A DNA stretch of 64,000 nucleotides from Eubacteriales bacterium (GTDB taxonomy: Bacteria; Bacillota; Clostridia; Lachnospirales; Lachnospiraceae). The notes below the pieces were generated by a model that saw only the letters and a program-made list of their open reading frames with translations, was not told where the DNA came from and did not search any database. The position numbers and the translations under genes were made by a program. The DNA is taken from the NCBI GenBank assembly GCA_030524715.1, contig JAUNGB010000001.1, positions 97,906 through 161,905 of the forward strand, given 5' to 3'. This document shows positions 8,205 through 33,391 of the stretch, piece after piece. The first letter of the stretch is position 1. Every line of letters begins with the position of its first letter.

Positions 8205-8828
8205 TCAACCTCTATCCCTTAAATACGCAACAAGTTCCCCTACCGTTGTCACAGGATTACTTCGTCTGGAGAGCAGTTCCACATTACCTGAATCCAGTTC
8301 CTCGATCCGTTTTTTCATTCGTTTAATTGCCTGTTCCTGCATTGGCTTCAATGTATCAAAGACATCCATATTCTTTTCATACTGTTCCAGTCTGCCCGGC
8401 TGCTTCAGCATCTTAATCAAGTTCTGGCAATCCGGCACTTCCGCACGCTGGTCAATAAAATGCACCAGAAACCACAGTTCAAATGATGGATTTGAGTATG
8501 CCAGCTGATATCCTTCCCTCTTTGCCGCCTGCTTTGCCCGAAGCAAACTGTCATCACTGTTGTCGTCCCGATCAAATACACACCAGATGATATCCCCGTC
8601 TTCCGGATAGTAAGGGTTGCTGCCCATCGTAGCTTTGGCTTTCTTCACTAAACTGTCTGCCGCCTTATACTGGGATGTCAGTGGGATAATATCGATGTGG
8701 CATCCTCTTGTACGAAACTTTTTAAAATATCGGATTTCTGTTTCACTGCCTTCGCATATCAGGTAAACCACAGGGTTGCGTGCTCTTCTATGGGCAGGCT
8801 TTCTGCTTATCTCTTTTATTCTTCCCAT
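8205..8828 (-). CDS. rloB: RloB-like Toprim nuclease partner
   Basis: The 207-residue protein matches the RloB family in size and motifs. The Toprim-type glutamate is in LICEGSETEIRYF (Glu26) and the acidic pair is in CVFDRDDNSD (Asp86/88), the metal-binding signature of OLD/Toprim nucleases. A later block, SNPSFELWFLVHF, is also typical of the family. Its start overlaps the stop of the upstream ATPase gene by 13 bp, so the two are translated together. RloA/RloB pairs were first noted beside restriction genes and resemble ATPase-Toprim antiphage pairs such as PARIS and OLD-type systems; an antiphage role here is inferred. A hairpin terminator follows at 8068-8093. Confidence 0.8.
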   Translation of the reverse strand: MGRIKEISRKPAHRRARNPVVYLICEGSETEIRYFKKFRTRGCHIDIIPLTSQYKAADSLVKKAKATMGSNPYYPEDGDIIWCVFDRDDNSDDSLLRAKQAAKREGYQLAYSNPSFELWFLVHFIDQRAEVPDCQNLIKMLKQPGRLEQYEKNMDVFDTLKPMQEQAIKRMKKRIEELDSGNVELLSRRSNPVTTVGELVAYLRDRG

Positions 8829-10003
8829 TCTGGCGCACCTCCAATAAACGGAATCGCACCATAGCGTCCCTGCAGGTAACCCTTGGATATGTTCTCGCCC
8901 TTTCTGGGAGAAAACTCAGTGAGTGCATAGATTTCCGTCTGAAGCGTATCCTCGTTTTTTTCTGCGAACCAGATCTGGTCTCTTCTCAGCAAGGTTGTAT
9001 CCAATAATCCGGGATCATGGGTAGTAAAAATCAACTGTGCATGGTTGGTATTGATTGCCGCATCCTGCACCATCTCAATCAGATGTCTGGTAAGCAGTGG
9101 GTGCATACTAGATTCAATCTCATCTACCAATAAAACAGAGCCGGTTTCCAGAGCCTCCAGCCACAGGCCAATGCGCCCAAAGAACCGTTGCGTACCCATG
9201 GACTCCATTCTCAGAGGCAGCGAGTATGCGGAATATTCCTTTTTATCTTTATCATGAACCCTATGCACGGTCGCTATCAGCGGGGATTCCTTGGGGCCGG
9301 AAACAACGACATCACGGATACCTAAGTCGGCTACCAGCATCTCTTTTAGCAGACGCTGTTTTGCTTCTCCGCCCTTCTGTACAGTGGACAGGCTTTGACA
9401 GATATCCATTTCGCTTCCGGAAAGACTCTTCATCTTTTCTGTAAACCACAGATAAGCGTTTTCCGTCTGCACGCAATTCCACTCATTAGAGCTGACTAGA
9501 TACAAACGGTTTTCAGACGTTCTTCCAGCCAGGACCATCTGCTCCTGCACATTTTCACGGAACTGATACTGATTCCCATCTCTTGAAAACACCAGTGCCT
9601 CACGGCCGTTCGGCCAGTGGTACAGATATTCGGTAAGGATCTGTTCCTTATCAAAGGTATATCCATAGGCATACTTGATACCCTTATAAAAGTAAATGAT
9701 TTCAAAACCTGTCGGCTTATTACTCTCTCTTGTGAATGCAAACGGTTCCTGTGGAAGCTTCTCTGCCTTTAATGGCTGGGCATATACACCACAAACCATC
9801 TCCCTCATCAGGGTGAGCGCATGAAGTATGTTGCTCTTACCCGCTGCATTGGCGCCGTATAAGGCCAGCAGAGGAACCAGTTCTCTTTTTCCGTCCGGAG
9901 AAATCAGACTTTCCTTCAAAGAAGAATCCTTTGAAGCCTTCATGGAAATAATTGCGGTATCTCTGATGGATCTATGATTCGTTACTGAAAACTGAAGCAG
10001 CAT
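8816..10003 (-). CDS. rloA: RloA-like AAA/ABC-type ATPase
   Basis: The 395-residue ATPase starts with the SMC/OLD-like N-terminus MLLQFSVTNHRSIRD and has Walker A GANAAGKS at residues 50-57. Walker B is SVLLVDEIESSMHPLL, followed by LIFTTHDPGLLD, the D-loop and H-switch of ABC-type (AAA_21) ATPases. No nuclease domain is present; the Toprim partner is the overlapping downstream gene. It has its own promoter (10034-10063), independent of the transfer operon. The pair probably forms an ATPase sensor and nuclease effector. It is inserted between the replication-type gene and virD4, a cargo position inside the conjugation core. Confidence 0.82.
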   Translation of the reverse strand: MLLQFSVTNHRSIRDTAIISMKASKDSSLKESLISPDGKRELVPLLALYGANAAGKSNILHALTLMREMVCGVYAQPLKAEKLPQEPFAFTRESNKPTGFEIIYFYKGIKYAYGYTFDKEQILTEYLYHWPNGREALVFSRDGNQYQFRENVQEQMVLAGRTSENRLYLVSSNEWNCVQTENAYLWFTEKMKSLSGSEMDICQSLSTVQKGGEAKQRLLKEMLVADLGIRDVVVSGPKESPLIATVHRVHDKDKKEYSAYSLPLRMESMGTQRFFGRIGLWLEALETGSVLLVDEIESSMHPLLTRHLIEMVQDAAINTNHAQLIFTTHDPGLLDTTLLRRDQIWFAEKNEDTLQTEIYALTEFSPRKGENISKGYLQGRYGAIPFIGGAPEWEE

Positions 10004-23515: not shown

Positions 23516-24079
23516 CTACCAACGCACATAAACCGTTTCCGCTAATGTAATCTTTCCAGCCTCCATATCAACAGCACGCATTTTAAGTAATTGGTTCAAT
23601 GCCTCGTCAAATTTGGAAAAATCAAAGGAATCGATTTTCCCCATGCGGACCAGCCTCTCTATTTCAGTCTTCAGATGTGCTTCATCAATCCCATAATTGG
23701 CACACTTTTGTTCATGAAGAGCATATACCATGGCTGCACAAGCCGGACTTAATTTCGTTATGGCAGTTTTGGATATAAATATACACCCCAACAAAATAAG
23801 CTGGATATAATTAAATACATTTTCCGGTTTGCTAAGCGATGCAGCCAGTTCAATCCCAGCGGCAATACACGCCCTTAAATCCAATCGGATGTTTCCTGGC
23901 TTTATAGAGAATGAATGATCTGCCAGGACAATCATATCCTTTTTCACCGGCTCCGGGCTGATGATTATATTTCCCATGACACAGTCATAAAATGGTTCCT
24001 CGATTCCCATATCCTCTGAACAGTTTTTTAAATGCCGGTTCAGCTCCAAATCAAGTGCCTCTGCCTCATCTCTCGTCAT
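23516..24079 (-). CDS. Partner protein of the HExxH protease gene, function unknown
   Basis: The 187-residue protein is mostly helical (ACIAAGIELAASLSKPENVFNYIQLILLGCIF, residues about 70-102, hydrophobic enough to bury in a fold or membrane). It ends in an HTH-like AVDMEAGKITLAETVYVRW segment. Its start overlaps the stop of the upstream protease-like gene by 14 bp, so the pair is co-translated. I do not recognise the family. Being paired with a predicted protease it could be its substrate, inhibitor or regulator. Confidence 0.5.
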   Translation of the reverse strand: MTRDEAEALDLELNRHLKNCSEDMGIEEPFYDCVMGNIIISPEPVKKDMIVLADHSFSIKPGNIRLDLRACIAAGIELAASLSKPENVFNYIQLILLGCIFISKTAITKLSPACAAMVYALHEQKCANYGIDEAHLKTEIERLVRMGKIDSFDFSKFDEALNQLLKMRAVDMEAGKITLAETVYVRW

Positions 24080-25121
24080 TGTTTCCCCTCCCGTAAATCC
24101 GAGTCGGCCGGATAATTGAATCCAGCTTCCCCCTCGTTCTTTTCAGCAAAACCTGCGTCCTGTATTCATCATATACATCCAAAAAACCGCCATACAGATG
24201 ATTCCCGTCCACAGTATCAAACATGTATTGATCATCACGCAAAACAGCGAACAGCCTTGCCTTCCTCTTTATCGGTAAAGGGTGCGTATCCGTGTTCAGC
24301 CTCGTCCGATACAACACATAGTCTGTATAGTAGAGAAGATCAAAATAATCCATATACATCATCGGAGCCATGTAAGTATATTCTTCAAGAATCCGTTTTT
24401 TCCGTTCTTTTCCTCTGCTTTCCATAATCATCTTCAGGACAATATCATAAGCAATCCCGTCCGCATCAAATTCCTCCTGCCGCATGGCCTGTTTCCCCTT
24501 TTTGACAGTTCTTTCCTTTAAATAGAGGTGTGCGATTTCATGTGCGATCGTAAATGCAGTGATTGTCCAGTAACAGTCTTCCGCCAGATTTATAACCTGC
24601 ATATCCCCATGGATTTCTTCCATCAACGTCCTGCAGGACTTCTCATCCGGCAATTCGCCCAAGATACTGACGTCATTCAAAATAAACAGGGTGTACAGAA
24701 AACAAAAACCATAGGTATCCAGATTCCGAAAGTCTTTCGACCATTTGAACAGAACCAGAAGAAACGAAAGGACTGCCGATTCAAACAACTCGTCAATATG
24801 GAGGAAACGGCTTTCCTCCTCCTTTTCTCCTAGCCACACATAGCTTCCCACTGTTTTTTGATACCGGTTGTTCAACTCGATCCGCTCGTCCTGGAATCCA
24901 TAATCCCGCTTAAAATAGCCGCGGACGGTTTCCAACATATTCTCCAAATTATATTGGTTCAAATTCTCCCTGATAACCGGCTCCGAGACCAGATCTTTCG
25001 GCAAATAATCTTGTATCAATCCTATCGCAAACTCTATATCCCTTGTTACCTCGCCGCCATATTTCAAAATACTATAATCACTTGGAGGAACCAGGAAATC
25101 AAACATCGACCTCTTATCCAT
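24066..25121 (-). CDS. Putative zinc metalloprotease with HEIAH motif
   Basis: I prefer the ATG at 25121, which has a GGAGAG site 5 bases upstream, giving 351 residues. An in-frame ATG at 25205 would add 28 residues but lies inside a palindrome and has only a weak, distant site. The core is ITAFTIAHEIAHLYLKE, an HExxH zinc motif, followed about 20 residues later by EEFDADGIAYDIV, which can supply the third ligand in the manner of M48 peptidases. Residues before it are helical and partly hydrophobic (SAVLSFLLVLFKW). It forms a two-gene unit with the gene at 24079. Substrate is unknown; a regulatory, immunity or toxin-type role inside the element is possible. Confidence 0.6.
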   Translation of the reverse strand: MDKRSMFDFLVPPSDYSILKYGGEVTRDIEFAIGLIQDYLPKDLVSEPVIRENLNQYNLENMLETVRGYFKRDYGFQDERIELNNRYQKTVGSYVWLGEKEEESRFLHIDELFESAVLSFLLVLFKWSKDFRNLDTYGFCFLYTLFILNDVSILGELPDEKSCRTLMEEIHGDMQVINLAEDCYWTITAFTIAHEIAHLYLKERTVKKGKQAMRQEEFDADGIAYDIVLKMIMESRGKERKKRILEEYTYMAPMMYMDYFDLLYYTDYVLYRTRLNTDTHPLPIKRKARLFAVLRDDQYMFDTVDGNHLYGGFLDVYDEYRTQVLLKRTRGKLDSIIRPTRIYGRGNNDER

Positions 25122-25190
25122 ACCATCTCTCCATAGATATATGTCTGCCACATCCACATCGCAGAGTTTCCATATCTCCGTCTGTATTCG

Positions 25191-25221
25191 GGAACCTTGC
25201 GACATAATGTCGCAAAGTTCC
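25191..25221. repeat. parS-like palindrome, copy 1
   Basis: A 31-bp palindrome with a single arm mismatch and core TTGCGACA-N3-TGTCGCAA. Related copies are at 26012-26040, 28893-28911 and 28945-28974. It lies 70 bp upstream of the preferred start of the HEIAH protease gene and covers an alternative ATG. A possible promoter (TTGTGT, 17 bases, TATAAT on the minus strand) lies farther upstream. Candidate ParB-binding or operator site. Confidence 0.7.
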
Positions 25222-25384
25222 TGATGTCTCCTCTTAACTGGTTTCGTTCATAATCCTTCATTATGTGGGGCATCTGTACATGTCATTATATCACTCAAAA
25301 AAATACCACACAAGGCACAAATGCTTTGCTGCCTGCCATTTGGGCAGGTGCTCGCAGATTCGTTTACCCTATGCCGCATTTCTA

Positions 25385-25939
25385 TTACTCGTCCATCGTC
25401 CATGTATCCTGAAAATGTTTCAGAAGCTTTCTGCTTTCATCTTCATAACCCCACAGTATATCTTTCACCGCTTTTAAAGCGCTCTCCCTCCACCGGAAAT
25501 ATGTGCTTCGGTTAATCCTTATGTTCTGCGGCAGGTGCGGGTCCAGCTTGCTTATAATCTCCGCAATATTATTTGGTTTATAGGCCGACATATAAGTGTA
25601 ATACAGAACCCAGTAATTCCGTTCCCCTTGGGGGTGATATTTCCGCATCAGTTCAACGGACTCGTCAATCAACTTCAGGAATTTGTTAGAGCTGTTAATT
25701 GCCTCTACCCTGGACTTTATATTCGCCTCGTCCTCATTAATGTCCATTCCGGCCTGATACAATGACTCTAAAAACTCATCCACATCGGTGCCATATTCCT
25801 TTTTAAAACGATGTTTCACCTGCCCAATCTGCATCTGCATCCTCCAGGATACGGAACGGTAGATCTGGAATAATCTTACTACATCATGATATACCGCATT
25901 ATCTTTATTCTCGCCTATAATAATTCCACTTTTACCCAT
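25385..25939 (-). CDS. Putative HTH regulator, ArpU/sigma-region-4-like
   Basis: The 184-residue protein is helical throughout. The C-terminal part contains a possible helix-turn-helix (IRINRSTYFRWRESALKAVKDILWGYE, around residues 140-166) recalling ArpU/RinA-type late regulators and sigma region 4. The middle has WVLYYTYMSAYKPNNIAEII, also HTH-like. It lies between two parS-like palindromes and upstream of the protease pair. It may control cargo or transfer genes; the assignment is by pattern only. Confidence 0.4.
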   Translation of the reverse strand: MGKSGIIIGENKDNAVYHDVVRLFQIYRSVSWRMQMQIGQVKHRFKKEYGTDVDEFLESLYQAGMDINEDEANIKSRVEAINSSNKFLKLIDESVELMRKYHPQGERNYWVLYYTYMSAYKPNNIAEIISKLDPHLPQNIRINRSTYFRWRESALKAVKDILWGYEDESRKLLKHFQDTWTMDE

Positions 25940-26011
25940 TATATTTATCCTCCATATTATTTTCTGTTGTGAAAACCATATTTGCTTTGGAGAATAGAAT
26001 TTAATTGGTTA

Positions 26012-26040
26012 GAACCTTGCGACATTGTGTCGCAAAGTTT
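26012..26040. repeat. parS-like palindrome, copy 2
   Basis: Core TTGCGACA-TTG-TGTCGCAA, with flanks GAACC and AGTTT close to copy 1. It lies in the intergenic stretch 25940-26188, upstream of the ArpU-like gene and downstream of the P-loop kinase gene. That stretch holds no gene I can support. Confidence 0.7.
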
Positions 26041-26188
26041 ATAGTGTAGATATTTTTAATAAGTTCCATATTTAGCTACTGAATAAAAATATAGGACACC
26101 TGATTATTTTAGATATCAGACGTCCTATTAATGCATTATCATATTGAGATTTACCCCTGTTGGAAGTACGTTCCGAGATTTTGTCTTA

Positions 26189-26722
26189 TTACAACAAAGT
26201 CAGGATTTCATCTACTATTTCTTCCAATGTCTTATCCTCTGTGTTGATTCTTACCACATTCGGGTATTCGTTATTCAAATACCGCATCTGCCCATCCACG
26301 TTATGCTTCTGATGTTCCCGCATGTTTTTGTCCCGAATTAAATCATTATCTATACGGGATATAATAGTTTCTTTTTTAGCCTCAAGAATAATGTGAAGCA
26401 TGGAAATATTTTTCTTTTCAAAATAGTCCAAAAGTTCTCTTTCACATAGTTTATCCACAAGCGATACTGACACGATAGGCATCTTACCACCATTGTACAC
26501 CTTTTCTTCTAACACTTCTCTAAGTAAGTTGAGAAATTTTTGATTATAATATGGAGCAAACCCAGTAAAGATATTGTTTTGGTCATTTTGAAGAAACTCT
26601 ATCCAATATTGATCAGACTCAACATACTCAGCGTTCCTATCTGCTAGGAATTTTGCAAGTTTCTTAGCTACATGGGATTTTCCCACACCATTGGCTCCGT
26701 CTATCCAAATAATCATATTCAT
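26189..26722 (-). CDS. P-loop kinase-like NTPase (AAA_33/TmrB type)
   Basis: The 177-residue protein has a Walker A motif near the start (IIWIDGANGVGKSHVAKKL, Lys about residue 16) and the acidic strand ESDQYW that in nucleoside and shikimate-type kinases follows. A lid-like basic segment (LIRDKNMREHQKHN) occurs near residue 130. Size and layout fit small-molecule kinases such as TmrB or chloramphenicol-phosphotransferase-like proteins, some of which give drug resistance. It is cargo in the element, preceded by a short sequence repeat shared with two other cargo genes. The substrate is unknown. Confidence 0.6.
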   Translation of the reverse strand: MNMIIWIDGANGVGKSHVAKKLAKFLADRNAEYVESDQYWIEFLQNDQNNIFTGFAPYYNQKFLNLLREVLEEKVYNGGKMPIVSVSLVDKLCERELLDYFEKKNISMLHIILEAKKETIISRIDNDLIRDKNMREHQKHNVDGQMRYLNNEYPNVVRINTEDKTLEEIVDEILTLL

Positions 26723-26756
26723 TTACCCTATAATATTTATTCTCGTCCTCAACCAA

Positions 26757-26789
26757 ATTCAATTTGTTCAGTTCGTCAAACTGGAATTA
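26757..26789. repeat. Cargo-boundary repeat, copy A
   Basis: Segment upstream of the P-loop kinase gene resembling 27098-27132 and 28719-28749. Shared pieces on the minus strand are AATTCCAG, GACGAA and AAATTGAATTT. It ends about 35 bp before the start codon. Similarity was judged by eye. Confidence 0.4.
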
Positions 26790-26802
26790 ATCGAGCTGAT
26801 AG

Positions 26803-27081
26803 TTACTGTTTTCTAACACTCCATTCATCATTTTGAGTTTTTCTTTCGGCATAGTAACCGCAAGGCATATCCTTTAGAATACCAACAGAATTATCTAAGT
26901 CAAATATTGATTTTAAGGATACTAACTTTGCTTCGTCTGTTCCATGCGTTTTTCCACATAGAAATTGCCACATTCCATCATCTTCATCATGTGATACATA
27001 CAAAATAGGTTCTCCATTCTCTATTATGTGGCAACAGGTAATTGTAGCTGTATTTGGTGCGTCATAAAAAGGAAATTCCAT
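26803..27081 (-). CDS. Small immunity-like protein (Imm33/DUF2185-like pattern)
   Basis: The start is the ATG at 27081 behind AAAGGAGTGTTAGAT, giving 92 residues; a longer frame reaches back through an AT-rich repeat and is unlikely. The pattern is ATITCCHIIENGEPILYVSHDEDDGMWQFLCG, then LVSLKSIFDLDNSVGILKDMPCGYYAER. The DDGxWQFLCG block recalls Imm33/DUF2185-type proteins, often encoded singly in accessory DNA. No toxin partner is seen beside it. The assignment is tentative. Confidence 0.5.
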   Translation of the reverse strand: MEFPFYDAPNTATITCCHIIENGEPILYVSHDEDDGMWQFLCGKTHGTDEAKLVSLKSIFDLDNSVGILKDMPCGYYAERKTQNDEWSVRKQ

Positions 27082-27097
27082 ATCTAACACTCCTTTC

Positions 27098-27132
27098 AAA
27101 TTCAAATTTTTCGTCTCATCAACCTGGAATTT
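27098..27132. repeat. Cargo-boundary repeat, copy B
   Basis: Second copy of the short repeat, just upstream of the immunity-like gene, with AATTCCAG, GATGAG and AATTTGAATTTG on the minus strand. Confidence 0.4.
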
Positions 27133-27190
27133 ATTGACTTTCTTTTTTATTTCCTTCTTGCCTTGTTTTTTTCTCTTTTTACCTTGTGTT

Positions 27191-28696
27191 CTAAAGTATA
27201 TCTGCATAATATTTTCCATCAATATTGGAAAAAGTCACTTGGGTAGGGAAAAGATTTATTCCCATAGCTGCCATTCCAACAACACTGCACGCCCATTCAC
27301 TTAGTTCATTCGGAAGTCGAAAGCACTCAGATTCTCCATCTTTTAGAATTGTTACTGTTGGAATGAATTTCTTATCCACACCAACCGATAATACATCAAA
27401 AGTCTGAGAACCTTCATGTAACGGCAAAAGGAGTTGCTTCCTCGAATCAAAATATACCTTCCCACCCCTTTTATTAAAAAATGATTCTTCGTCAAAGGGA
27501 ATTACTGGCTCAAAGGGCAATTTGCATCTTCTTTGTTCAAAATACCTTGTTAATTGCTCACAAGCAAATGCATTAAAGTATTCACCTTGCATATCTATAT
27601 CAGCCCGGATCTGTTCGACAGATTCAAAATGGTTCATAAAATTAAGCAAGGCATTGAATATAACCAGATCATCCGAATAAATACCGGAGTACGATTTGTA
27701 CCAAGCTGGTTGCCATTCGCAAATAAGACGATATAGCTTTTTATAAAGCTCTAATTGAACTTCACTCAAACAAAACCAACCTGCATCAAGAATCTTTTTG
27801 TTGGTACTTTCATCAAAAGATTGGTAGCGTAAGGAATTGCACACCCCCTTCAACAGCTTAGAAATGATTCCCGCCATCATATCTGCCATACGAAGACCTG
27901 GATGCTCCGTAGAATCGGCTTCATCTGAATTATCCAGACCCATTTCACGAGCAGACTTTAGAGTTTTACTTTCTTCCTCCGCTTCACCTTCTTTATCAAT
28001 AATCAGTAAATAATTTTGTATATCTTTTTCCTGCAAATACTTATTGAACCCATCAAAAGGCATATGATAATCCCAATCAAGCTCTGGGACATCTGAAATT
28101 TCATCTAATACGAGTAAAATTTCTTGAAATGACGTCGTCTCAGCTTGCTTTAATCCCGGATTGGTTTTATTGCATTCAATCCTATCTCGGAAAAACTTCT
28201 TTAGTTCCTCTAAAAAACTTTCGGATGATTTGTAGAGGCACTTAATAATTTCCTGCGGGCGATACACAACGAGAGCCTTTGTAATGGAATACTTCATTAA
28301 GTCCGCATCAACGAGAAAACTGTTTCTGTACCCTCGAAAAACCTGTAACACAAGGTATTCGATCTTGCTGCCAACAGAAAAGTAAATATGAATATCCTCG
28401 TCAAAAAGCGATAGAAAATCATTTATAAACCGAGCATTCTGCTTGTTGAGGGAGGCAAAACCATTCTTGAATTGTTTTTGTTGAAACATCGTACTTTTAA
28501 TTTCACCATTATGATTTTTTCTGTCTGCGTACTTGGTTTCAAAAGCAGCATGCCGTTGCAAAATATCATCTTTCTCGGCTGACCATCCTACAATCATGGT
28601 CACGAAATTATCATAATAATTAGAGGCACTTACCGTCTTGTAATTAATTCTTCGGCTATGCTCAGACTCATCATAGTAGAAATTGTATTTAGACAT
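27191..28696 (-). CDS. DUF3800-like protein (RNase H-fold type) of the cargo region
   Basis: I choose the ATG at 28696, so the protein begins MSKYNFYYDESEHSRR; a longer frame from 28762 would include the cargo-boundary repeat. The N-terminal YYDESE block and the later PGLRMADMMAGIISK resemble the two acidic motifs of DUF3800 proteins, thought to have an RNase H-like fold. After about residue 330 comes an extra domain (PVIPFDEESFFNKRGGKVYFDSRK onward) absent from simple DUF3800 proteins; total length is 501 residues. Such proteins are frequent in mobile and defence regions. Nuclease activity is inferred only. Confidence 0.6.
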   Translation of the reverse strand: MSKYNFYYDESEHSRRINYKTVSASNYYDNFVTMIVGWSAEKDDILQRHAAFETKYADRKNHNGEIKSTMFQQKQFKNGFASLNKQNARFINDFLSLFDEDIHIYFSVGSKIEYLVLQVFRGYRNSFLVDADLMKYSITKALVVYRPQEIIKCLYKSSESFLEELKKFFRDRIECNKTNPGLKQAETTSFQEILLVLDEISDVPELDWDYHMPFDGFNKYLQEKDIQNYLLIIDKEGEAEEESKTLKSAREMGLDNSDEADSTEHPGLRMADMMAGIISKLLKGVCNSLRYQSFDESTNKKILDAGWFCLSEVQLELYKKLYRLICEWQPAWYKSYSGIYSDDLVIFNALLNFMNHFESVEQIRADIDMQGEYFNAFACEQLTRYFEQRRCKLPFEPVIPFDEESFFNKRGGKVYFDSRKQLLLPLHEGSQTFDVLSVGVDKKFIPTVTILKDGESECFRLPNELSEWACSVVGMAAMGINLFPTQVTFSNIDGKYYADIL

Positions 28697-28718
28697 TTTC
28701 CAACGTCCCCTTCTTATA

Positions 28719-28749
28719 AAATTCAATTTAGAAGCAACTTCCCAGGAGG
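28719..28749. repeat. Cargo-boundary repeat, copy C
   Basis: Third, most diverged copy, upstream of the DUF3800-like gene, sharing AAATTGAATTT and TCCTGGGAAG-like sequence on the minus strand with copies A and B. Confidence 0.35.
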
Positions 28750-28892
28750 TCATTTCTGCCATCTTATCCAGCCACTAAATTCAAATTTATTTAATTATAT
28801 CAAAAGCACTTCTCAAAAGGAAGCTTAATATATATCTATTCGCTGAATATATCATATCTTTAAAATATAAAGACCTAGTCACTACTATCGCT

Positions 28893-28911
28893 TTGCGACA
28901 TTGTGACGTAA
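28893..28911. repeat. parS-like palindrome, copy 3 (degenerate)
   Basis: TTGCGACA-TTG-TGACGTAA: the left half matches the consensus core and the right half has two changes. It lies in the 28763-28985 intergenic stretch beyond the parB stop, 40 bp from copy 4. Confidence 0.55.
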
Positions 28912-28944
28912 AGTTTATGATCATATTATCATTTTACAGACTAT

Positions 28945-28974
28945 GGAACCTTGTGACATTATGTCGCAAGGTCC
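28945..28974. repeat. parS-like palindrome, copy 4
   Basis: Core TTGTGACA-TTA-TGTCGCAA, flanked by GGAACC and GGTCC. It ends 12 bp before the stop codon of parB. Placement beside parAB is typical of a partition site. Confidence 0.7.
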
Positions 28975-28985
28975 CACTTACCTAG

Positions 28986-29879
28986 CTAACTGAATCCATG
29001 GCTGTCTTTCCAAGACTTCAGCAACTCAATTATTACAGCTTCAATCTGCTCTTTTGTATATTCCTGCGGAAAATAATTTCTTATTTTCTTAGAAGATATT
29101 GTGATACTCGGCATCTCCCGTCCTTTTTCCCTAGGAGACAAAATCATCATTACTCTTTCTTCTGTCAAGGTTCCCGCCCTACTCTCGTCTTTTAAAGACT
29201 CAGCCTGCGTAACCGACAAAGAAAGATTTTGCTCCACTATCACTTTGAGTACCCACTCCTGCTCTTCCCTGGCAAGATAAGATAGTTTTTCTGCCGGAAG
29301 AAGAAGGAGTTTTTTCTTATCCACATGATCCAAGAGTTCTGGAAGCAAATAGGTCAAGCGGATATACCGCTGCACGGTTCTGCCTGTCTCTTCAGCATCC
29401 TGCCCTATCAAATCTGCTGTATACCCCTCTCCTTTGACCCCCTGATGGCTCAGCGCCTCCATTTTCATACGATACGCCTTAGCTTTTTCTGATGGCAAAA
29501 GATCTTCTCTCTGAATATTGGAATCAACCATGATAATGGTAGCCTCATCATCCGTCAGTTCCCGAACAATAACCGGCATATCCAAACAGCCGGCTAGTTC
29601 ACTTGCCCGTTTTCGTCTGTGACCTGCAACAATCTCATATCCTCCCTTCTTGTCCTTGCGGACGATTCCAGGTACTAAAACCCCATACTTTTTAACACTC
29701 TCAACTGTCTCTACCATCTTGTCATCATCAAGAACACGAAACGGGTGATTTTCAAATGGATGCAGTGATTCAAGCGGCAGACGTATGATTTGGCTGTCTT
29801 CCATTTTTTCACCCTGTCCCTTACCAAACAAGTCATCATAAGAGGCAAATTGAACTTTATCCGCGCTACGCCTGCCCAT
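28986..29879 (-). CDS. parB: ParB-family partition protein
   Basis: The 297-residue protein has the ParB/Spo0J N-terminal domain: LESLHPFENHPFRV, then GIVRKDKKGGYEIVAGHRRKRASELAG (the CTPase and arginine-rich box region, residues about 60-90) and VDSNIQREDLLPSEKAKAYRMK. A helix-turn-helix region follows, covering roughly residues 125-190. It would bind a partition site and spread or clamp with CTP. It overlaps the parA stop by 14 bp, forming parAB. Palindromes with core TTGCGACA-N3-TGTCGCAA lie just past its 3' end and are its best candidate sites. Confidence 0.93.
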   Translation of the reverse strand: MGRRSADKVQFASYDDLFGKGQGEKMEDSQIIRLPLESLHPFENHPFRVLDDDKMVETVESVKKYGVLVPGIVRKDKKGGYEIVAGHRRKRASELAGCLDMPVIVRELTDDEATIIMVDSNIQREDLLPSEKAKAYRMKMEALSHQGVKGEGYTADLIGQDAEETGRTVQRYIRLTYLLPELLDHVDKKKLLLLPAEKLSYLAREEQEWVLKVIVEQNLSLSVTQAESLKDESRAGTLTEERVMMILSPREKGREMPSITISSKKIRNYFPQEYTKEQIEAVIIELLKSWKDSHGFS

Positions 29880-30654
29880 GAGTAAGCACCTCCTCCGTCA
29901 GAGCCGCATAGCCTTCGGCAGCGACCCCCCTGGGATCGTGAAGGTATATGCTTTTACCTTCTGCACTCGTTTCTGCAGCCCTTACAGACAATGGAATACA
30001 ATTTTCAAAAATGTGAATCTGGCTGCCATATGCTGCTCTCAGCTTATCGGAAATATCCTTTGCAAAATTGGTTCTGCGGTCTACCTTCGTCAGTAATATT
30101 CCTTCAATCTCAAGTTCTGGATTTAGTTGGCGGTGGACCCGACCAATGGTTTTAATAAGCTGCTGCAGTCCTTTTGCCGGCAGATAGGCCGACTCTACTG
30201 GTATCAGTACGCTGTCCGCCGCTACAAGGGCATTAATTGTCATCATTCCAAGAGATGGCATACAGTCAATCAATATGTAATCATATTGTCCCTTAAGCTC
30301 TTCGATATAGAGGCGGAGTACAGTCTCCCTGCTCATCACATTCACCAACGTAGTCTCAAGGCCAGCCAGTTCAATATTAGCAGGAAGAAAGTCTACCCCT
30401 TCCGCATGATGAAGAATCCCCTCTTTTATATCTATCGGTTTGTCATTCACCACCTTTTTCAAAACGTCCACTAAAGTCACTTCGAGGTCATCCGGTTCTT
30501 CAATTCCCAGGCTGGCAGCTAGATTTCCCTGTGGATCAGCATCAATTAAAAGAACTCTCTTCCCTTTTCTCACCAGTCCAATTCCTAAGTTTACACATGT
30601 GGTTGTCTTTCCAACTCCGCCCTTTTGATTTGCTATTGCTATTATCTTATCCAT
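29866..30654 (-). CDS. parA: ParA-family partition ATPase
   Basis: The 262-residue protein shows the deviant Walker A motif KGGVGKTTTCVNLG (residues about 11-24), switch I DADPQGNLAASLG, and the Walker B-like segment YDYILIDCMPSLGMMT. It drives positioning of the element, or of a circular intermediate, together with ParB. The ATG follows GAGGAGAAC. Length is normal. It is 41 bp downstream of the DUF6075-like gene. Confidence 0.95.
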   Translation of the reverse strand: MDKIIAIANQKGGVGKTTTCVNLGIGLVRKGKRVLLIDADPQGNLAASLGIEEPDDLEVTLVDVLKKVVNDKPIDIKEGILHHAEGVDFLPANIELAGLETTLVNVMSRETVLRLYIEELKGQYDYILIDCMPSLGMMTINALVAADSVLIPVESAYLPAKGLQQLIKTIGRVHRQLNPELEIEGILLTKVDRRTNFAKDISDKLRAAYGSQIHIFENCIPLSVRAAETSAEGKSIYLHDPRGVAAEGYAALTEEVLTHGQA

Positions 30655-30695: not shown

Positions 30696-31112
30696 TTATA
30701 CACCTCCGCAGCACTCAGGATATCTAATCTTAACCGCCTGCCAGAAGTATGGCGCATACCCACAGTAGAATAGATCCTCCACAGTATATTTTCTGCATTC
30801 AGAGAGCTGTTCTTCAGCCTCTTTATAATCATATACACTGGGAGTACCATTGCAATAAAGGTTATATGCCATTCTTACGATATGCAGGCTTCCTGTTGTC
30901 TGCCAGCCCTCATGCAGGCATTTTGTTTTAACAGTCCCCGATTTAAAATCATAAATTCGATTCACATTTTTTCTTGTATCCTCGCTAATTCCCAGACAGT
31001 AAACCAGGGCGGCGTGATATACATCCTGACATCTGCATTTTGGCAGGTACTGCACAAAGAAACGTTTATGAGCCTCATTCTTAAAAACAATGTTTGTCTT
31101 ACTATCTTCCAT
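30696..31112 (-). CDS. DUF6075-like conjugative-element protein
   Basis: The 138-residue soluble protein has the pattern FFVQYLPKCRCQDVYHAALVYCLGIS and later YTVEDLFYCGYAPYFWQAVKIRYPECC. I recall this from DUF6075 proteins near parA in clostridial elements. The start lies behind AAAGGAGACGTACCAA. A hairpin with a T-run (31147-31182) lies in its leader, as with three other genes of the element. It is the rightmost element gene that I can support. Function is unknown. Confidence 0.6.
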   Translation of the reverse strand: MEDSKTNIVFKNEAHKRFFVQYLPKCRCQDVYHAALVYCLGISEDTRKNVNRIYDFKSGTVKTKCLHEGWQTTGSLHIVRMAYNLYCNGTPSVYDYKEAEEQLSECRKYTVEDLFYCGYAPYFWQAVKIRYPECCGGV

Positions 31113-31388: not shown

Positions 31389-31712
31389 TTAGCAAATCAG
31401 CACACCATCAACTGGTTGTGGTTTTTCCTCACATGCGTAGTAGGAGACAAAGTATTCTACCGCGTTGTTGGGGAAATATTCTTTGAATTCTCCGTATAAC
31501 TGGGCTGCCAGGGTCTTATTGTGGGCGATGATCAGGGTCGGCTTGTTTAACGCCTGAATAACATTGGCCATCGTAAATGTTTTGCCGGAGCCGGTGACGC
31601 CCAGCAAGGTCTGAAATTGATTGCCTTCTTTAAATCCCCGCACCAACTCGGCAATGGCCTGGGGCTGATCGCCGGTTGGGGCGTATTCTGATACTAATTC
31701 GAAATGGTCCAT
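31389..31712 (-). pseudogene. uvrB: uvrB, 5' fragment 1
   Basis: The frame starts with its own ribosome site (AAGGAG) and encodes the true UvrB N-terminus: [19 protein letters not shown], Walker [16 protein letters not shown] and [17 protein letters not shown]. It continues to YFVSYY at about 31437, where UvrB normally reads DYYQPEAY. Here unrelated residues follow for 15 codons to a stop. Only about 93 of some 660 residues remain, so this is a fragment, not a working excinuclease subunit. The break lies at the same codons as in fragment 2 at 33791-33910. Confidence 0.85.
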
Positions 31713-32325
31713 ATATGTTTATCTCCTTCATTATAGTAGCACTCTCCCTAATATAGCTAGTTCTTTTCCCAATTCGAATTAAGAAATAGCATAATATTTG
31801 TATTTGAAGCTTTTCAAGTATTCTTCCTACATCCCCCGTTTTGAGCGTAAACTCGCAATGTTGACTTATATCTTTTGGATGTTTATCTTTAAATGTTACA
31901 TAGCACACATTGTTAACCACTTCATAAAAACATTTTGAGTGGGAAACTGCATTCCTCGTATGTCTATAAAAATTAATAGTACTCAAATCATTACTAGATT
32001 CATTATTGTATGTTGTATTCGCATTAGTAACTAAGTTTAAAAATAATTGATTAATTTCCCTCTCACATTGATCACCATAAGTTTTATCATATTTTTCAAA
32101 GATTCCTTTTGGCATTACCAGTAATACATATAAAAACATTTGCATAGTAGCAGGATTTCCAATTCCTGAAGCTTTTAATATTTTTCTAAAATTTTCATTA
32201 TTACCAGAAAATTGAAGTTTTTGAAAATATTCACTCTTTAAAAAATTATTATTACTTAATTCTCCAAGCAATGAAGTTATTGCCAATGCTTGGCACAAAA
32301 CAGATTCATTAGGTGTTAATTCCAT
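31630..32325 (-). CDS. HEPN-domain protein with R-x4-H motif
   Basis: The frame is 231 residues. The first 190 are helical and contain [12 protein letters not shown], fitting the R-x4-H signature of HEPN ribonucleases and resembling the MAE_28990/pEK499_p136 type. The last 27 residues are out-of-frame reading of the uvrB fragment, so the native C-terminus has probably been altered; a one-base shift near 31765 would give an earlier natural stop. The gene follows the DUF1016 nuclease gene by 34 bp in the same direction. A toxin, abortive-infection or defence role is inferred from the motif and partner. Confidence 0.6.
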
Positions 32326-32359
32326 AACATCTTTCTCCCTTTATAAAACTCATATCTCG

Positions 32360-33391
32360 TTAATCCCCCAACTTTTTAAAGTCATCCAAATTCAATTCTC
32401 TGCGAAGTTCTTCTTCTGTCGGCATATACGGCAAATATTTTGCCGCATAAATCTGTTTATTATTTTCCGGCAAAGTATAACGGACCAAAGTATCACTTTT
32501 ATCCGCACACAGAAGAATTCCAATAGGGGGATTATCTCCTTCATTCATCAATTCTCTTGTATAATAATTTACATACATCTGCATTTGTCCTATATCTTGA
32601 TGAGTCAAATCATCTACTTTTAAATCAATTAGGACAAAACATTTCAGGATATAGTTATAAAACACAAGGTCAATATAAAAATGTCTCCCATCAAAATTAA
32701 TATGTTTCTGACGTGCTACAAATGAAAATCCTCTTCCCAACTCTAATAAAAACTTCTGTAAATGATTAATTAGAGCTTGTTCTAAATCACTTTCATAAAA
32801 ATGTTCATTTGCCGGTAAATTAAGAAATTCAAGTACATATGGATCTTTAACAATTGACTCATATTCTGGTTTAGGTTCTACTACCTCAATTTCCTTAGCG
32901 ACACTTTCTTTGTCATGGCTTGCGAGAATACGCTGATAAAACATCGTATTAATCTGACGTTCTAATTGTCTTACACTCCACCCTGCTTTCACAGCCTCTT
33001 TAGCATAAAATTCCCGCGCTGTTTCATCTGTTACTCTCATTAATTTAATATAATGCGACCAGCTCAATTCGGGAGACAGTGTCTCTCGAATTGGAAACAT
33101 CAAATAAAAACGTCTCATATTTCTAAGATTCGTTATATCAAATCCTTTTCCAAATTCTGCTGTCAATTTTTTAGATATATACTGTAATAGCTGTTTACCA
33201 TATGTCGCACGTTCATTTTCACCACATGCATGATAAATCTGTTCGCCGATTTCCCAATATGCATTTACCATTGCGTAATTAACGGTTGCTTTAACTTTAT
33301 TTTGTGCATTTATAATATATCCACGAATGGATAAATACATTTCTTCTTGTTTTTGTTCAGCAAAAAGTAATTCTTTTTCCTGTTTCTTCAC
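32360..33391 (-). CDS. DUF1016 (YhcG-type) PD-(D/E)XK nuclease-domain protein
   Basis: The 343-residue protein has the DUF1016 N-terminal helical domain: VNYAMVNAYWEIGEQIYH, and GFDITNLRNMRRFYLMFPI, then WSHYIKLMRV. The C-terminal PDDEXK-like domain contains FYIDLVFYNYILKCFVLIDLK, whose Asp and Asp-x-Lys are the likely catalytic residues, and later GILLCADKSD. Length is normal. Homologues are common beside restriction-modification and other defence genes. Here it forms an operon with a HEPN protein, both set between broken uvrB fragments. Confidence 0.85.
   Translation of the reverse strand: MKKQEKELLFAEQKQEEMYLSIRGYIINAQNKVKATVNYAMVNAYWEIGEQIYHACGENERATYGKQLLQYISKKLTAEFGKGFDITNLRNMRRFYLMFPIRETLSPELSWSHYIKLMRVTDETAREFYAKEAVKAGWSVRQLERQINTMFYQRILASHDKESVAKEIEVVEPKPEYESIVKDPYVLEFLNLPANEHFYESDLEQALINHLQKFLLELGRGFSFVARQKHINFDGRHFYIDLVFYNYILKCFVLIDLKVDDLTHQDIGQMQMYVNYYTRELMNEGDNPPIGILLCADKSDTLVRYTLPENNKQIYAAKYLPYMPTEEELRRELNLDDFKKLGD

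Follow-up and report, generated by a model that had tools for sequence, protein, structure and literature searches.

What reads the palindromes that surround the parAB genes of a mobile element in a Lachnospiraceae genome? The question is raised by the window analysed here, a 64,000-nucleotide stretch of an Eubacteriales bacterium (contig JAUNGB010000001.1, positions 97,906 to 161,905), in which four such palindromes occur near a partition operon. Judged from sequence comparison, the four palindromes are very probably parS sites for the ParB that the element itself encodes. This assignment is based on the repetition of the sites in the window, their exclusivity within the genome, their conserved placement in related elements, and a covariation between the letters of the palindrome and the residues of the ParB recognition helix.

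Four palindromes beside parAB

A pattern scan of the window, with up to 3 mismatches tolerated, yields four copies of the core TTGCGACA-N3-TGTCGCAA, confirming both the number and the places of the dispersed copies reported near parAB in an earlier note on this DNA. The core TTGCGACANNNTGTCGCAA is located at 25197-25215 and 26017-26035 (0 mismatches each), 28893-28911 (2 mismatches) and 28951-28969 (1 mismatch), such that all four sites fall within 3.8 kb, beside parAB. The number expected by chance is 0.19 per window, and four copies were reached in 0 of 100 shuffles. The four copies align as a single 31-nt repeat family, and their conserved flanks extend the site to a 25-bp palindrome, ACYTTGCGACA-N3-TGTCGCAARGT, of which the third site is a degenerate version. 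These sites represent class I of a family of 25-bp palindromes with the general form ACTT-n7-N3-n7-AAGT. When the entire 5.28-Mb host genome is scanned with up to 2 mismatches, the core is found at the same four places only (reversed control, 1).

According to a mechanical map of the open reading frames (ORFs), each of the four sites precedes a gene on the minus strand. In copy 4, the core lies 16 bp beyond the parB stop codon. Copy 1 spans the ATG at 25203-25205, as the earlier note had observed for an alternative start codon; this ATG opens the longest reading of ORF 24066-25205, for which a Shine-Dalgarno-like stretch suggests a better, likely start near 25121. One copy also scores as a weak terminator-like site, as would be expected if the palindromes were transcription terminators or RNA hairpins. 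This match, however, lies on the plus strand whereas the adjacent genes lie on the other, and it is the only one in the region, versus 2.3 expected; moreover, RNA structure would leave the correspondence between core letters and ParB-helix residues (see below) unexplained, and we regard this explanation as very improbable.

The chromosomal, Spo0J-type parS is a 16-bp sequence with the consensus TGTTTCACGTGAAACA. Even when 3 mismatches are allowed, the window contains no match to this consensus; three perfect copies occur within 2.7 kb on another contig of the host, beside a chromosomal-type parB. If 2 mismatches or fewer are tolerated, the more generic pattern ACTTnnnGACA-N3-TGTCnnnAAGT is found at 6 places of the host, four of which are the window sites; the reversed control gives 4. 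The other two places are perfect 25-bp GACA-type palindromes, and both lie inside other parB genes, the helix of which likewise contains TGR. These two genes (L448 and L449), on host contigs C121 and C173, each have a perfect intragenic ACTTGTGGACA-N3-TGTCCACAAGT. The suggestion that the palindromes form a distinct ParB site family, unlike the chromosomal parS, is strongly supported by the lack of parS in the window together with the covariation of helix and core.

Class I sites in relatives and other genomes

In a species-genome collection of 257 billion bases, the exact 16-base core is present in at least 120 stretches, many of them, among the matches listed, in unrelated phyla; about 60 matches are expected by chance from base counts alone. 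The extended ACTT...AAGT form is found mainly in Lachnospiraceae and other Clostridia, again among the matches listed, and the extended exact pattern gave 0 matches in viral contigs. When the host was scanned along with 60 relatives, the exact core was found in 5 of these 61 genomes, at 11 sites altogether, as opposed to 0 for the reversed control. Among 291 genomes of the class, 4 (the host and three more) contain the class I pattern in its 25-bp form if 2 mismatches or fewer are tolerated (reversed control, 1 genome). The three non-host genomes all hold ACTTTCCGACA, in two of the three inside parB. The third, a ACTTTCCGACA-type 25-bp palindrome at L412:1501, has no ParB match within its 3-kb stretch and is possibly a dispersed site. 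As to whether the palindromes occur in genomes without this parB, which would count against the proposal of the earlier note, the answer is mixed: the bare core is also found in unrelated bacteria, and the 25-bp form lies inside parB in two of the three non-host genomes.

Class I sites occupy matching places in the elements of 12 relatives. In all 12, a site follows the DUF6017 gene, 1.4-1.8 kb past parB. Others come further along the stretch and, if it extends far enough, in a cluster past the coupling-protein gene and singly past the sortase gene. The ParA and ParB proteins of these elements are 73-80% and 53-59% identical to those of the window, respectively, compared with 26-36% for the coupling protein, the VirB4-like protein and the sortase. 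The helix motif of the window ParB, [ST]GRTVQ, was identified in a ParB of 17 of the 21 genomes reached via site-bearing loci, in which a core scan (with places taken among the matches listed) gave 0 matches for the reversed core.

Two further observations were made. In several relatives, the interval between parB and the DUF6017 gene contains clusters of palindromic repeats with a spacing of 23 bp or a multiple of it (L167:3438-3615, L177:5337-5467, L199:11418-11526 and others); these might act as an origin of replication or an additional centromere, and were not found in the window. At L007:3831-4061, a class I-like core lies beside a parA fragment, in a genome whose sole ParB found is a distant one.

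Intragenic sites in the wider ParB family

An initial palindrome search, which was not seeded with the class I core, covered 27 ParB regions and the window and revealed that other ParBs own other cores. Since this search reported only clusters of at least 3 and missed the class I sites in L164, L173 and L178, it was followed by a scan with the fixed 25-bp form. ParBs that are 50-54% identical to that of the window are accompanied by dispersed ACTTCTGGACA-N3-TGTCCAGAAGT-like sites (class II), and many ParBs with 34-52% identity carry a 25-bp palindrome inside the parB gene itself. Of the 106 unique ParBs examined in the wider family, 67 have such an intragenic palindrome. Its position and reading frame are constant: it falls in the loop just before the helix-turn-helix, where it encodes, e.g., DLTSSQVGTK. 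This loop insert is missing from the ParBs of the window clade, that of the window included, and their sites are located outside the gene.

The intragenic position raises the issue of whether the palindrome is a by-product of the protein sequence. In 34 of 85 parB ORFs (not dereplicated), 11-12 of the 12 arm pairs match, as opposed to 3 of 850 synonymous-codon shuffles, and pure coding constraint was rejected as the source of the palindrome on these grounds. The occurrence of the bare core in unrelated phyla and the 4 reversed matches to the generic pattern in the host would be consistent with chance repeats; the chance expectation for the window and the reversed controls for the core (1 in the host, 0 in either the 61-genome or the 21-genome set) argue otherwise. 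The probability that the palindromes are chance repeats or products of coding constraint is therefore negligible.

In a tree of 147 ParBs, the [ST]GRTVQ proteins form one group (21 rows including the window, support 85) and the class II helices another (8 rows, support 95); the two are sister groups (91) and are placed among ParBs with intragenic sites. The groups were labelled by helix motif rather than by site, and the class I group therefore includes the class Ib ParBs and that of L185. The tree was derived from a short search with a midpoint root and speaks to the grouping, not to the direction of change. In two groups of close ParBs, the segment from the palindrome to the helix exhibits 53-54% DNA identity, compared to 77-88% in the flanks, and similar cassettes appear on different backbones (SKNQIFR with TTCCC, and RE(T/Q)IRR with GACACC). 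These patterns are consistent with site and reader being swapped together.

A helix-to-base code

The relationship between helix and site was assessed using the 67 intragenic sites of the 106 unique ParBs, which were reduced to 47 by dereplication. Items with disagreeing arms were left out position by position, leaving, e.g., 42 of 47 for position 8 and 38 of 47 for position 9. Core similarity among the 47 ParBs follows recognition-helix similarity once backbone similarity is removed (partial r 0.278, 0 of 2000 permutations). In the window ParB, G166 aligns with an arginine of the Thermus Spo0J, which we take to be the equivalent of Caulobacter R173. The latter residue contacts a guanine of parS (PMC7383237). 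The helix residue one past the R173 equivalent corresponds to arm position 9, with Asn paired to C (10/10), Asp to G (6/6) and Glu to A (6/6), and between the helix and arm position 8, Arg is paired to G (13/13).

When relatives with more than 60% backbone identity were excluded from training, the base at position 9 was predicted correctly in 34 of 34 cases (majority base, 18/34) and that at position 8 in 36 of 39 (majority base, 23/39). Prediction also surpassed the majority base at positions 6 (13/40 versus 9/40) and 11 (31/41 versus 17/41), with no gain at positions 5 (16/36 versus 23/36), 7 (17/39 for both) and 10 (39/42 versus 40/42). The rule was then frozen and applied to 45 new ParBs, 38 of which have an intragenic site; 11 of these had been gathered before the rule, with their sites then unexamined, and 26 + 1 afterwards. 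The rule covers 25 of them at position 8 and 23 at position 9; in the remainder, either the helix residue is not one that the rule addresses or the two arms disagree. It was correct in 24/25 and 23/23, respectively (23/24 and 23/23 upon removal of L411, which had been preselected by its site pattern), compared with 19/25 and 16/23 for a constant guess of C, and none of 5000 permutations matched the observed pair. Among the new ParBs with less than 70% backbone identity to the training set, the rule gave 12/13 and 12/12, versus 9 and 8 for the constant guess. In plasmid and phage records, 9 non-duplicate ParBs contain an intragenic site; the rule covers 5 and is correct in 5/5 at both positions.

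If intragenic sites alone are used for training, the code predicts GACA next to the centre for the helix of the window ParB (G166, R167), the very letters seen in the window. Together with the GACA palindromes inside other parB genes of the host, this makes it very probable that the window sites are the parS of the ParB, and it is on account of the helix-to-base covariation that ParB is named as their reader. Other ParBs with dispersed sites also agree with the code, namely those of class Ib (CYCGACA) and that of L324 (TGTGCCC, helix SARQ), whereas the dispersed site of L242 agrees on one arm only. L185 is the one clear exception at position 9 among the dispersed sites.

Several observations weigh against the assignment of the window sites to ParB. 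Site 3 is degenerate. Among the 120 exact-core stretches listed, each of which is at most 8 kb in length, a ParB was found in 10. Three of the five exact-core genomes, the host included, have a ParB with E <1e-99; the fourth has a 65%-identical ParB fragment in addition to more distant ParBs, and the fifth has only a distant ParB. Four of the 21 site-bearing genomes (G062, G079, G080 and G081) are without a window-motif ParB among the examined matches. As to the code, it misses the outer triplet TGC of the window site, for which CTG is predicted. The class Ib ParBs share the helix motif of the window and nevertheless use CYCGACA, such that other residues must also matter. The sole candidate site of L185 (L185:11344, helix SGRT) is CGCGCCA, which is wrong at position 9. 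Finally, the new ParBs with less than 60% backbone identity to the training set have C at position 9 in every case, and the score of 6/6 in this subset is therefore without power.

A different reader has also to be considered, i.e., an element-borne regulator that travels with parAB and uses the palindromes as its operators. The most plausible candidate would be the DUF6075 protein, the gene for which adjoins parA. A DUF6075 match was found in 25 of 101 stretches, every one of which has a ParB of the window kind (50-100% identical to that of the window, some of them fragments). Nevertheless, stretch L245 combines class I sites and complete ParA and ParB with no DUF6075 match in the stretch, and a DUF6075 match is likewise lacking from every stretch whose parB contains a palindrome, although the sites there display the same 25-bp shape and follow the same ParB-helix code. 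DUF6075 was rejected as the site reader for these reasons, and the alternative as a whole appears quite improbable. The protein may possibly be a KorA-like partner.

Segregation or regulation

Even if ParB binds the sites, its main role there might be to regulate transcription within the element, like KorB or BisD, and not to segregate it. The placement of the dispersed sites is suggestive in this respect: 56 of 98 are intergenic, compared with 16.7 expected on the mechanical ORF map, although some sites are counted inside spurious ORFs, many of the elements are near-copies, and the 98 may include 1-2 chance matches. In the window, the sites are upstream of cargo genes. On the other hand, promoter-like matches in the region are at the level of chance (16 found versus 14.4 expected), and many relatives keep the site inside parB. 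ParA was matched in 19 of 19 stretches with the window motif and in 10 of 10 class II stretches. In the wider set, ParA is present in 73 of 91 ParB stretches; the 18 without a match to the window ParA all contain distant ParBs (38-43% identical), some of which may thus not serve segregation. These 18 are possible orphan ParBs, and they render the segregation role less certain in the wider family. The stretches concerned are L202, L203, L205, L209-L214, L216, L217, L219-L221, L232-L234 and L257, most of which have an intragenic palindrome. On balance, a mainly regulatory ParB seems less likely than not for the window.

The parAB locus and its neighbours

The features of the locus are collected in Table 1. 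The element fits an integrative conjugative element, since it contains coupling-protein, TraG-type, sortase and lytic-transglycosylase genes. The parA and parB genes overlap at 29866-29879. The segments GHRRKRA and NIQRE of the window ParB align with GERRYRA and NLQRE of a solved Spo0J and are presumably the cytidine triphosphate (CTP) motifs, CTP binding by the window ParB being a prediction. The best NCBIfam match of this ParB is the Noc model, but its score of 101.2 bits is far under the cut-off of 315, and identity with Noc was rejected. The cargo genes nearby look defence-like or have no known family. Between the coupling-protein and DUF6017 genes (8205-10003), there is a gene pair comprising an RloB/AbiLii-like and an AAA (AbiLi-like) gene, and at 31630-33391, a weakly HEPN-like gene adjoins a YhcG/DUF1016 nuclease gene (PADLOC candidate PDC-S02).

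Table 1. Coordinates of the putative parS sites, the partition genes and the adjoining genes in the window
Feature	Coordinates	Strand	Remarks
parS-like site 1 (class I, 25 bp)	25194..25218	.	ACCTTGCGACATAATGTCGCAAAGT; ~75 bp upstream of the likely start of the Lit-like gene
parS-like site 2	26014..26038	.	ACCTTGCGACATTGTGTCGCAAAGT; centre 87 bp upstream of ORF 25385-25939
parS-like site 3	28890..28914	.	Degenerate, 2 core mismatches
parS-like site 4	28948..28972	.	1 core mismatch; past the parB stop, upstream of the DUF3800 gene
parB (297 aa)	28986..29879	-	ParB_N, 8.2e-19; HTH_ParB, 24.0 bits (cut-off 22.6)
ParB recognition helix EETGRTVQRYIRL, codons of residues 163-175	29355..29393	-	Residues hand-counted on the translation
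parA (Walker ATPase)	29866..30654	-	AAA_31, E 4.9e-59
DUF6075 gene (possible partner)	30696..31112	-	Co-inherited with dispersed-site ParBs; adjoins parA
Cargo gene downstream of site 1	24066..25205	-	Weakly similar to Lit / M78 peptidase
Cargo gene downstream of site 2	25385..25939	-	No family match
Cargo gene downstream of sites 3 and 4	27191..28762	-	DUF3800

Proposed mechanism and comparison with known systems

If the palindromes are parS sites, a ParB dimer would most likely bind to each 25-bp palindrome, with the helix residues T165-G166-R167-T168 reading the inner GACA in both halves. By analogy with other ParABS systems, the site would be the loading point for ParB-CTP, which would slide onto the adjoining DNA and may serve there as a handle for ParA, and thereby for segregating the element once it is excised or when it replicates. 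ParB, whether held at the sites or sliding, might in addition reduce expression of the cargo genes at the level of transcription; such repression is possible because the sites are dispersed between these genes, and their placement makes an operator action plausible.

Like the chromosomal ParABS systems (Spo0J or Caulobacter ParB), the window system comprises a ParA, a ParB with ParB_N and helix-turn-helix domains, and a palindromic site. It differs from them in that the site is a 25-bp odd palindrome as opposed to the 16-bp parS, its core varies between close relatives, and it is either intragenic, at the loop insert, or dispersed. A parS within a parB gene is already known from the spo0J gene of Bacillus subtilis. 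The sites of the plasmid protein KorB are dispersed and differ in sequence from the window site, and the IR1-4 sites of phage N15 are spread over the phage genome. KorB of plasmid RK2, a repressor and CTPase clamp of the ParB family (PMC11790492), resembles the window ParB, a predicted ParB-type CTPase, in its several sites on a conjugative element. By analogy, the several sites between genes of the element might form a KorB-like dispersed operator network with a function in repression. The sites IR1-4 of N15 are centromere sites for SopB (PMC7205306); the likeness, by description, consists of several single centromere sites, and the difference is in the ParB. BisD of Pseudomonas integrative conjugative elements, a ParB-like protein that regulates gene expression according to PMC12704722, shares with the window ParB its ParB-like and element-borne nature, and was likened by description alone. 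With Noc/NBS, the family shares a change of specificity through the same helix region (PMC7383237). No description of the site family, the intragenic loop site or the residue-base code was found in a search limited to open-access papers.

Implications for the ParB family

The family is large and apparently undescribed. A broader interpretation, which we advance tentatively and as a whole, would be that of a self-labelling ParB-parS family, in which the parB gene carries its own centromere in the loop codons before the reading helix. Site and reader would be exchangeable as one cassette, and specificity would therefore shift as a unit, according to a code that approaches one residue to one base; many related elements could then coexist in a cell with their centromeres unmixed. 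In the clade of the window, where the site lies outside the gene, it would form a dispersed network of centromeres and operators, perhaps with the DUF6075 protein as its KorA-like partner.

The specificity of a ParB for its site has been dissected in detail for the parS/NBS pair (PMC7383237). The more than 100 unique natural ParBs with their own sites (67 + 38 + 9) render the recognition code directly testable, and they provide candidate orthogonal ParB-site pairs for DNA labelling. The conserved-looking motif DLTSxQxGxK would be the imprint of selection on DNA. The findings also suggest a route by which hosts may tolerate many related elements, as exemplified by one Sporofaciens genome, in which 18 matches to the window ParB (E<=1e-15, including fragments and distant ParBs) were found.

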